Below, piece by piece: positions 1 to 2,622 of a DNA stretch of 64,000 nucleotides. The notes below the pieces were generated by a model. That model made no database searches. It saw only the letters and a program-made list of their open reading frames with translations, and was not told the DNA's origin. The DNA is from an uncultured beta proteobacterium. GTDB lineage: Bacteria > Pseudomonadota > Gammaproteobacteria > Burkholderiales > Burkholderiaceae_C. The position numbers and the translations under genes are program-made. The stretch spans positions 1-64,000 of the forward strand of contig CAILZB010000122.1 in NCBI GenBank assembly GCA_903838565.1. Direction: 5' to 3'. Each line of letters begins with the position of its first letter. Position 1 is the stretch's first letter.

Positions 1-159
1 GCTTATCTCGTTTACGCCATCGACCTCGACACTGGTCTCGAGGAAGAACCACGGCGATGACATAACCTCGGCGGCCATCCAGTATCTGGAGCCGCGCTCC
101 CTTTCAGGACTGGGGAAAGTTTTTTCGTCTTTTAGAACGGTTCGAATTTCGCGAGACAT
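1..159 (-). CDS. Hypothetical protein, N-terminal 53 residues (runs off left edge)
   Basis: An open frame begins with ATG at 157-159 and runs leftward without a stop to the edge. A GAAAGG ribosome-binding site lies six bases upstream of the start. The 53 visible residues are charged at first (starting MSREIRTVLKDEK) and then contain a tryptophan- and phenylalanine-rich stretch around SRYWMAAEV and SSPWFFLET. I do not recognise a family. The gene is divergent from the small helix-turn-helix regulator at 367-618, an arrangement seen for regulator/target pairs such as controller proteins of restriction-modification systems. That functional link is only inference. Confidence 0.5.
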   Translation of the reverse strand, partial: MSREIRTVLKDEKTFPSPERERGSRYWMAAEVMSSPWFFLETSVEVDGVNEIS

Positions 160-618: not shown

Positions 619-643
619 GAGGGAAGAGCCCCTAAAAAAGCTG

Positions 644-972
644 GCGCAGAACCATTTGTCTGTGTGCGAAATCTGGCGCAGAACCGTTTGTCTGAAACAG
701 GCAAAAATGGCCTAAATTGCCATGTTTTTGAGATGTTGCACCGAGTTCGATAACAAGTCGGCGAACGAACCCGTTTTTTGGGGACTTTTTGTGCAGATAC
801 AAAAGTCGCAAGGGCCTGAAGCAAGAATCCAGCATTGGCGCGGGTTAGCGGGGCGCCAGCGCAGAACCATTTGTCTGTGTCAAACCCCGTTTTTACCCAC
901 TCAGCGCAGAACCATTTGTCTGAAAACGGTCAGCGCAGAACCATTTGTCTGACCGCAGAACTTTAATGTCTG
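644..972 (+). repeat. Six-copy 19-bp repeat array at the element end (transposase-binding-like)
   Basis: The motif GCGCAGAACCATTTGTCTG occurs at 644-662, 859-877, 904-922 and 933-951. There is one single-base variant at 676-694 (CCG for CCA) and a diverged copy at 953-972. All copies have the same orientation. Spacing is irregular inside and tightens toward the comEC junction, where the last two copies nearly touch. Tn7 is a known case of end arrays with crowded and dispersed TnsB sites. No open frame here is convincing. The stretch 695-858 between copies two and three shows nothing else I can name. Confidence 0.8.
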
Positions 973-2622
973 TCAGCAGATCGCGCCGACTGGGATGTCT
1001 TTCGCGCCACCGGGGTAGCGCATCTGATGAGCATTTCCGGGGTTCACATCACCATGTTCGCCTGGGGTGCGGCGTGGCTGGTGGGCTGGCTCTGGCGCCG
1101 CTCCTCACGCGTGTGCCTAGCCTATCCCGCTCCCGGCGCGGCCCTGGTGGGTGGCATCGTTCTGGCCAGCGCCTACGCGGTGTTCAGCGGCTGGGGCGTT
1201 CCATCGCAACGCACCATCTGGATGCTGTGCTCCGTCGGGCTGCTCAGGCTTTCCGGGCGCAGTTGGCCCTGGCCACAGGTGTGGCTGCTGGCGCTGGGCC
1301 TGATCGTTGCCGTCGATCCCTGGGCCTTGCTGCAAGCCGGCTTCTGGCTCAGCTTTGTTGCGGTCGGCGTGCTGTTTGCGACGGACTCCGGCGAGCGCGA
1401 CGCCGCACGGCGGGGGATTCAGTCCCGCACGCGTTCATTTTTTCGCGAACAGTGGGTCGTGACGCTGGCGCTCACGCCGCTGAGCCTGCTGCTTTTCAAC
1501 CAGGTATCGGTGATCGGGCTGCTGGCCAATGCGCTGGCCATTCCCTGGGTCACGCTGGTGCTGACGCCGCTGTGCATGTTGGGCGTGCTGTGGTCACCGT
1601 TGTGGGACGCCGCGGCCTGGGCTGTGTTGGCGATGAGCGCGCTGCTGCAGGCGCTGGCCGCCTTGCCCTTTGCCAGCGTGACTGTGGCTGCCGTGCCGCT
1701 GTGGGCGGCCGCAGTGGGCGTGGCGGGCGGCACGCTGCTGGCCATGCCGTGGCCCAGAAGCGTGCGCGTGCTGGCCTTGCCCTTGCTGCTGCCGGTGCTG
1801 TTGTGGCAGGTTGAACGCCCCGAATTGGGGCAGCTTGAACTGCTGGCGGCCGATATCGGGCAAGGTAACGCCGTTTTGGTGCGCACAGCCGGACACGCCC
1901 TGGTGTACGACGCCGGTCCGCGCTTCAGCAGCGAAAACGATGCCGGGCAGCGCGTGCTGGTGCCGCTGTTGCGCGCCCTGGGCGAGCGTGTCGACACGCT
2001 GGTGCTGAGCCATCGGGACACCGATCACACCGGTGGCGCTGCCGCGGTGCTGGCAACGCAGCCGCAGGCGCGCTTGCTCAGCTCGCTTGAATCGGACCAT
2101 CCTTTGCAGGCCCTGCGCGCTGCTCAACGCTGTGAACTGGGGCAGCGCTGGGACTGGGACGGCGTGGTTTTTGAGGTGCTGCATCCGCAGGCGCCGGACT
2201 ACGAAGCACGGCCCAAGAGCAACGCCATGAGCTGCGTGCTGCGCATCACGAACGGCGTGCACACCGCCCTGCTTGTGGGAGACATCGAGCAAGCCCAGGA
2301 GGCGCGGCTGCTGAACCGCCCCGAAGCCCTCAAGGCCGACCTGCTGCTGGTGCCGCATCATGGCAGCAAGACGTCGTCCAGCGCGGCTTTCCTGGACGCC
2401 GTGGCGCCTCGGTTTGCGCTGGTGCAGGCGGGCTACCGCAACCGCTTCGGTCATCCCGCCAGCTCGGTGATGGAGCGTTACCGTGAGCGACAGATTCAGG
2501 TCGTGGATTCGCCGCGCTGCGGCGCCATCACCTGGGAGTCGGCGCAGGCGCAGCGGGTGTTGTGCCAGCGCGATCTGGGGCGACGCTATTGGCAACATCG
2601 GGTGCCGGTGGAGCGCGAATAG
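973..2622 (+). pseudogene. comEC: ComEC/Rec2 DNA-uptake channel protein, 5' end lost
   Basis: The frame resumes as ADRADWDVFRATGVAHL and continues through the ComEC competence membrane domain, with many hydrophobic helices up to about 1800. It ends with the metallo-beta-lactamase-like domain carrying HRDTDH at 2011-2028 and PHHGS near 2353. Intact ComEC proteins are about 750-850 residues; only about 550 codons remain. An in-frame TAA at 964-966 lies inside the inserted element. The missing part is the N-terminal region with the OB-like domain and the first helices. ComEC forms the inner-membrane channel for DNA in natural transformation, so this copy is probably non-functional. An internal start at 1027 might still give a truncated product. 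Confidence 0.88.

Follow-up and report, generated by a model that had tools for sequence, protein, structure and literature searches.

What kind of mobile DNA ends in front of the interrupted comEC gene at the start of this contig, and how did it come to lie there? The window (the whole stretch of 64,000 nucleotides that was analysed) opens with the first base of contig C122 in assembly G000, which comprises 141 contigs. An earlier note, made from the letters of the window, had claimed six co-oriented copies of a 19-bp motif close to the point where comEC resumes, and had taken them for the transposase-site-like array of a mobile-element end. Our answer, given with high confidence, is that the array forms the right end of a Tn7-like transposon from a lineage that homes into comEC. 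The evidence consists of both element ends, the interruption of comEC, an empty site, and seven further tnsABC-tniQ elements located in comEC. The features at the start of the window are as follows.

1–159, minus strand: beginning of a cargo gene that is cut off, 53 codons, its frame open to the contig start
367–618, plus strand: XRE-type (HTH_3) regulator at the element's right end (Pfam HTH_3, E 7.9e-13)
644–662, minus strand: putative TnsB site 6, 317 bp inward of the terminus
676–694, minus strand: putative TnsB site 5, 285 bp inward of the terminus
859–877, minus strand: putative TnsB site 4, 102 bp inward of the terminus
904–922, minus strand: putative TnsB site 3, 57 bp inward of the terminus
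933–951, minus strand: putative TnsB site 2, 28 bp inward of the terminus
953–970, minus strand: putative terminal TnsB site 1, GACATTAAAGTTCTGCGG, its core also found at the opposite element end on contig C69
971–978, minus strand: terminal 8 bp of the right end, TGCTGACA (counterpart at the left end, TGGTGACA)
979–982, plus strand: right copy of the 4-bp target-site duplication GATC (empty site in G173, same genus)
979–2622, plus strand: comEC beyond the interruption (3' part), with Competence and metallo-beta-lactamase domains; its frame is open from 1027

The motif GCGCAGAACCATTTGTCTG occurs in five copies, all on the plus strand (644–662, 676–694, 859–877, 904–922 and 933–951 of the window), of which that at 676–694 carries one mismatch; 100 shuffles gave a mean of 0.07 matches and a maximum of 1, as compared to the five observed. 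The sixth copy claimed, at about 953–972, is divergent: its core is one base longer than in the other five, and it resembles the sites of the element's opposite end more than they do. Measured from the terminus (978) into the element, the distances of the six sites are 7, 28, 57, 102, 285, and 317. Position 978 is the last base of the element; comEC resumes mid-gene at 979, and the frame 1027–2622 carries Pfam Competence and Lactamase_B. The regulator that the earlier note had placed at this end is the HTH_3 protein encoded at 367–618, and the cargo-gene start at 1–159 gave no match in a Pfam search. A plasmid collection searched with the array DNA yielded no match. An exact-motif scan of a collection of genome contigs returned six single matches, about the number estimated for chance, and these were dropped because a rescan of the loci found no second site with fewer than four mismatches. 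A single copy of the motif close to the end of contig C32 was likewise taken as chance.

The missing 5' part of comEC was located on contig C69 of the same assembly as a 281-aa frame with DUF4131, which the inverse of the array interrupts at the corresponding position. The left end found there begins TGGTGACA GACATTAAAGTTCTGC and has further sites 69 and 114 bp on, the one at 69 bp being the weaker (4 mismatches); the right end, read inward, begins TGCTGACA GACATTAAAGTTCTGC. The two ends are one inverted-repeat pair, and their TnsB-site-like arrays, six sites on the right in the window and three on the left on C69, are inverted relative to each other. All four other genomes of the genus that were examined have an uninterrupted comEC frame (815–904 codons from stop to stop, as far as the loci reach), and the terminal motif at one mismatch had no match in any of them. 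In G173, with 85% identical DNA, the site is exactly the left flank of G000 joined to its right flank, sharing GATC; to the left of the break, collinearity with G173 extends over 1.5 kb at 86% identity. Two things for which the earlier note had said to look, an inverted array at the other end and a target-site duplication relative to the intact comEC of a close relative, were found, and the repeats, whose presence in relatives with intact comEC would by the note have refuted its reading, were not seen in these four genomes. A link through a shared IS between C69 and contig C37, which carries istAB-like genes, a WYL-type gene and unknown genes (named by eye), was weighed and rejected, since the sequences flanking the IS at either end do not, by eye, form a matching duplication. 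The IS at the end of C69 is itself a putative assignment, drawn from repeats at its termini noted by eye and from no more than eight codons.

The earlier note had also asked for a transposase within about 100 kb, and for the window copy this failed: none was found in its own genome. Pfam and profile searches of the G000 assembly returned no TnsB and no TniQ. Pfam Mu-transpos_C and Pfam TniQ gave no match in G000, and control genomes were equally without match; the TnsB profile search of G000 had no positive control in the same run; and a TniQ profile matched 8 of 399 family genomes, G000 not among them. G000 retains only the DUF4096 end of a TnsE-like gene, on C69. With no TnsB or TniQ in its own assembly, the copy looks decayed or incompletely assembled, its transposase genes probably having been lost or left unassembled; no contig of the assembly connects its interior to the two ends.

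Complete relatives supply these genes. In a pattern search of 399 family genomes, only G167 matched besides G000. Its contig C57 carries an element of ∼29.5 kb at the same point of comEC, encoding TnsA, a 698-aa TnsB, TnsC (TniB domain), and a 439-aa TniQ, between ends very similar to those of the window. A wider survey, with either the G167 TniQ or a profile of four TniQ as query, recovered TniQ at the set thresholds in 7 of 399 order, 8 of 399 family, and 2 of 369 class genomes (16 genomes in total, the frequencies being those of sampled genomes), and 15 of the 16 were inspected, G367 being left out. Seven elements lie in comEC (G167, G455, G088, G630, G751, G243, and G341), one (G658) has an undecidable target because its contig ends in an apparent IS, and seven were not seen in comEC: no comEC was present in the stretches examined of G375 (215 kb), G702 and G742 (60 kb each), G032, G949, and G1130 (40 kb each), and G312 (21.6 kb). 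The hosts of the seven comEC elements represent seven genera of four families, and the elements share nearly the same insertion point and the same orientation. The left end adjoins the 5' part of comEC in 7 of 7, and the right end adjoins the 3' part in all five that have a right end on the contig (G243 and G341 show only the left junction). The five elements with both ends measure approximately 21.8–49.1 kb. All seven carry a core of TnsA, TnsB, TnsC, and TniQ, although the TniQ of G630 (L056:9310-9972) is truncated and lacks the C-terminal domain, another end piece lying outside the open frame. The G630 element is in comEC nonetheless, and its TniQ probably decayed after insertion.

In G167, a SIR2-HerA defence pair forms part of the cargo between the right end and tnsA (C57; L034:7153-10118; PADLOC SIR2 9.4e-80, HerA 4e-169). 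Elsewhere on this contig (C57:33843-34691; L035:14843-15691) is a gene for a 282-aa cargo protein whose first ∼150 residues match the PADLOC short-Argonaute-associated REase family (2.4e-28), and adjoining it is a 1344-aa protein without a PADLOC match. Beside tnsA of G375 (C6, ∼101–106 kb), an ATP-binding OLD-like gene is followed by a UvrD-like helicase gene, an arrangement that is Gabija-like by eye.

Terminal site arrays are also borne by Tn5053/TniABQ and IS21-type elements, a 4-bp duplication is also known for IS21, and G000 has IS21-type genes (four Mu-transpos_C_2, istA-type, matches, all on other contigs), so the array might be the end of another such DDE element that landed in comEC by chance. 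However, the closely similar ends in G167 enclose tnsA-tnsB-tnsC-tniQ, and TnsA is not known from Tn5053 or IS21; nor would a chance landing be expected to recur at nearly the same point in seven other genomes. The complete relatives in effect refute this explanation, to which we give hardly any credence. Tn5053/TniABQ elements consist of TniA, TniB, and TniQ without TnsA, and the presence of TnsA in all seven comEC relatives therefore places the element outside that family. In IS21 the transposition genes are istA and istB; because the relatives carry TnsABC-TniQ and the istA-type matches of G000 are on other contigs, membership in IS21 does not hold either. The mobile-element end of the earlier note is accordingly a Tn7-like right end, and of the families it had named as candidates, Tn7 stands, the TnsB being closest to Tn7 TnsB among solved chains, and TniABQ and IS21 fall.

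The ends of the comEC relatives are similarly organized, although some of their sites are weak. In 6 of 8 elements the left end has three sites, near 9, 67–86, and 112–131 (G243 and G341 with one additional weak match); G630 and G088 have two at the threshold used. Right ends have a terminal group plus sites 254–317 bp inward in G000, G167, G455, G088, and G751, and the G630 right end is without the further inward sites. Several end sites have 5–6 mismatches to site 1, and single weak sites may be chance, since shuffled ends give 0.2–0.4 matches each. The right end of Tn7 has a terminal site group only; the inner sites, ∼250–320 bp from the terminus (644–694 in the window), are present in five diverged elements, though some are weak.

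Among the six comEC elements with both junctions, four show an exact 4-bp duplication (GATC, GATT, GCAC, and CAGG), and in those four a 4-bp overlap is the only one that both matches and preserves the comEC frame. Three of four duplication bases match in G088, and G455 has no duplication. When eleven elements were scanned for inverted ends with a duplication, each gave 10–153 candidates, mostly chance. The scan placed the true ends with 4 bp at rank 1 in G167, rank 2 in G751, and rank 3 in G630; the best-ranked candidate in G702, G742, G949, and G1130 had 5 bp and TGT...ACA ends, Tn7-like by eye; and nothing convincing emerged for G455, G088, G032, and G375. Outside comEC, a 5-bp duplication was thus seen in the four delimitable Tn7-like elements of six scanned.

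The proteins of the relatives point to Tn7 as well. Against solved chains, a TnsB profile from five elements matched Tn7 TnsB (7pik) over nearly its full length with E 5e-124, the second-best chain being Tn6677 TnsB (6e-22). The TniQ profile matched Tn7 TnsD (8glu, E 5.2e-28) in its N-terminal part (profile 16–301 of 423; chain of 318 residues). The C-terminal part of TniQ is common to 6 of the 7 comEC elements and G658. Its profile was built from four comEC elements, and G243 (1e-31) and G341 (1.5e-17), both in comEC, and G658 (1.6e-23) are independent matches; no match was obtained in G375, in G630 with its truncated TniQ, or in seven outgroups, one of which is a named Alteromonas plasmid element. 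One TGA was flagged within the match in the TniQ of G243 and of G341, yet frames of 391 and 448 codons are open.

The protein encoded downstream of tniQ appears, by sequence comparison, to be a TnsE-like N-domain fused to DUF4096, which would replace the C-terminal half of TnsE. Pfam identified the C-terminal DUF4096 in 6 of 6 such proteins (G167, G455, G088, G658, G751, and G630), and a profile of the six found counterparts in G243, G341, and G375. For the N-terminal part, matches were obtained to the gene that follows tnsD in five outgroups (G742 1.2e-16, G312, G949, G032, and G702 1.3e-5), and none in G1130 or the named plasmid loci L106 and L107. The G949 counterpart in turn matches 25 plasmid records (∼25–33% identity in the matches listed), and 10 of the 12 matches listed are annotated as TnsE. 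Aligned by hhalign to a TnsE alignment built from two proteins annotated as TnsE and three from outgroups, the DUF4096-protein profile matched in its N-terminal part with probability 96.5 and E 8.5e-10, as against 0.1 for the negative control TniQ. Residues 336–520 of one annotated TnsE match the solved Tn7 TnsE C-terminal domain and lie outside the part aligned by hhalign; the sole PDB match of the TnsE-DUF4096 profile had E 1.1. TnsE is described as almost universal in glmS- and comM-targeting members in the part of a review that treats it (PMC11406308), and the protein of the comEC elements has an N-domain related to TnsE but a C-terminal part that is DUF4096 instead.

The seven comEC elements group with G658 and G375 (support 99/99) in a tree of 15 TnsB rows. 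On this tree the comEC label needs two changes, and bootstrap trees unite it in one group in 16% of cases; comEC homing may therefore have had more than one origin. The similar position and same orientation of all the insertions, and their place in one well supported TnsB group alongside G658 and G375, would also fit one ancient insertion that was inherited, or spread with comEC by recombination, in place of repeated homing. However, the hosts belong to different genera and families, the four other genus genomes are empty, TnsB of the comEC elements is only 37–48% identical to that of G167, and the insertion points lie a few bases apart with duplicated 4-mers that differ, which makes a single ancient event highly unlikely.

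How would such an element find its site? The insertion point lies between two conserved comEC motifs, AGVxAALVxGDQxAI and W..F...G..H....ISG.H.T, in which the invariant bases occupy almost only codon positions 1 and 2 (left, 19 of 20 in 12 sequences; right, 25 of 27 in 10 sequences). With conserved motifs on both sides of the point, TnsD might read either; since the TnsD site of Tn7 is faced by its right end, the second motif would be the likelier one. By analogy with Tn7, the putative TnsB would bind the terminal repeats and pair the element ends; TniQ/TnsD, through its own C-terminal domain, would recognise the conserved comEC coding DNA beside the insertion point and recruit TnsC and TnsAB, with TnsC as the link. 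Insertion would then place the right end next to the 3' part of comEC and use a 4-bp stagger, and the TnsE-DUF4096 protein would probably serve a second, plasmid-seeking pathway. The passages on Tn7 in a review assign these roles to its proteins, TnsB pairing the ends, TniQ/TnsD binding the attachment gene, and TnsC connecting them (PMC11406308). Against this account stand G630, in comEC with its truncated TniQ, and G375, of the same TnsB group, with no comEC within the 215 kb examined; the lack of TnsB and TniQ matches in G000, the absent duplication of G455 and the imperfect one of G088 also count against it. The G375 element (C6, ∼92–100 kb) has the TnsE-DUF4096 protein, but its TniQ is shorter and lacks the C-terminal part of the comEC type; it is the relative to compare for target choice.

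Loss of comEC would abolish DNA uptake, and the element might thereby be protected from removal by transformation. Where tested, comEC loss abolishes or strongly lowers transformation, according to excerpts of two studies (PMC12955456, PMC11472951). Alternatively, comEC may be merely a tolerated site and the loss of transformation a by-product from which the element gains nothing. The site used by Tn7 itself is a harmless one, and an attachment gene need only be conserved and dispensable; on the other hand, comM-targeting Tn7-like elements likewise disrupt a gene needed for transformation, and such elements are predicted by models to benefit, as portions of two papers have it (PMC10293859, PMC4774983). 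We regard the tolerated site as a possible but rather unlikely account. That the comEC elements form a separate Tn7-like lineage across several families of one order, combining a comEC-homing TniQ/TnsD, a 4-bp stagger, a TnsE rebuilt with an IS5-type DUF4096, and host uptake loss that blocks removal, is a composite reading whose chances we judge to be even.

If these interpretations are true, comEC joins comM as a transformation-gene attachment site of Tn7-like elements and, being the channel through which DNA is taken up, would be the stricter target of the two. A site-specific element would then allow a direct test of the idea that mobile DNA disarms transformation so as not to be removed. 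The 4-bp duplication would conflict with the statement that 5 bp are duplicated by all relatives of Tn7, and both the TnsE chimera and the C-terminal part of TnsD would be natural variants for the study of target choice and for site-specific integration tools. In the literature matches listed, comEC is not reported as an attachment site of Tn7-like elements, although supplementary tables may hold such a report; the word comEC is absent from the main texts, as far as these were available, of papers on Tn7 target selectors (PMC10293859) and cargo (PMC8649781) and of the review (PMC11406308), whose element table, in the portion available, gives glmS, yhiN, comM, parE, tRNA sites, and plasmid resolution sites.

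Among known systems, the comEC elements are most readily set beside Tn7, which targets glmS. They share with it TnsA/B/C and TniQ/TnsD, a left end of about three sites and a multi-site right end, a fixed orientation at a conserved coding sequence, and a TnsE-like protein downstream of tniQ (Tn7's own layout being a left end of about three sites, a multi-site right end, and tnsE downstream). Unlike Tn7, the comEC elements insert inside the target gene and interrupt it, make a 4-bp rather than a 5-bp duplication, and have TGG/TGC/TGA rather than TGT termini; their TnsD is shorter with another C-terminal part, the C-terminal half of their TnsE is DUF4096, and of the five comEC elements with both ends, all but G630 (4 of 5) have cargo between tnsA and the right end.

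Closer in its effect on the host is Tn6022/AbaR, as characterised in parts of two papers (PMC10293859, PMC11406308), which is likewise Tn7-like and inserts into and inactivates a natural-transformation gene. Its target, however, is comM, which sets the comEC elements apart from it. It uses TniQ with TnsF; the comEC elements have one TniQ/TnsD of ∼400–440 aa with its own C-terminal part. Mobile DNA that interrupts comEC has precedents in the mef(A) island of Streptococcus pneumoniae (PMC4774983) and in various TEs of Piscirickettsia salmonis (PMC12955456), although the relevant sections of these papers describe both as other elements. The P. salmonis TEs are placed there at non-identical comEC positions, in contrast to the one narrow site occupied here by a lineage with its own TniQ.
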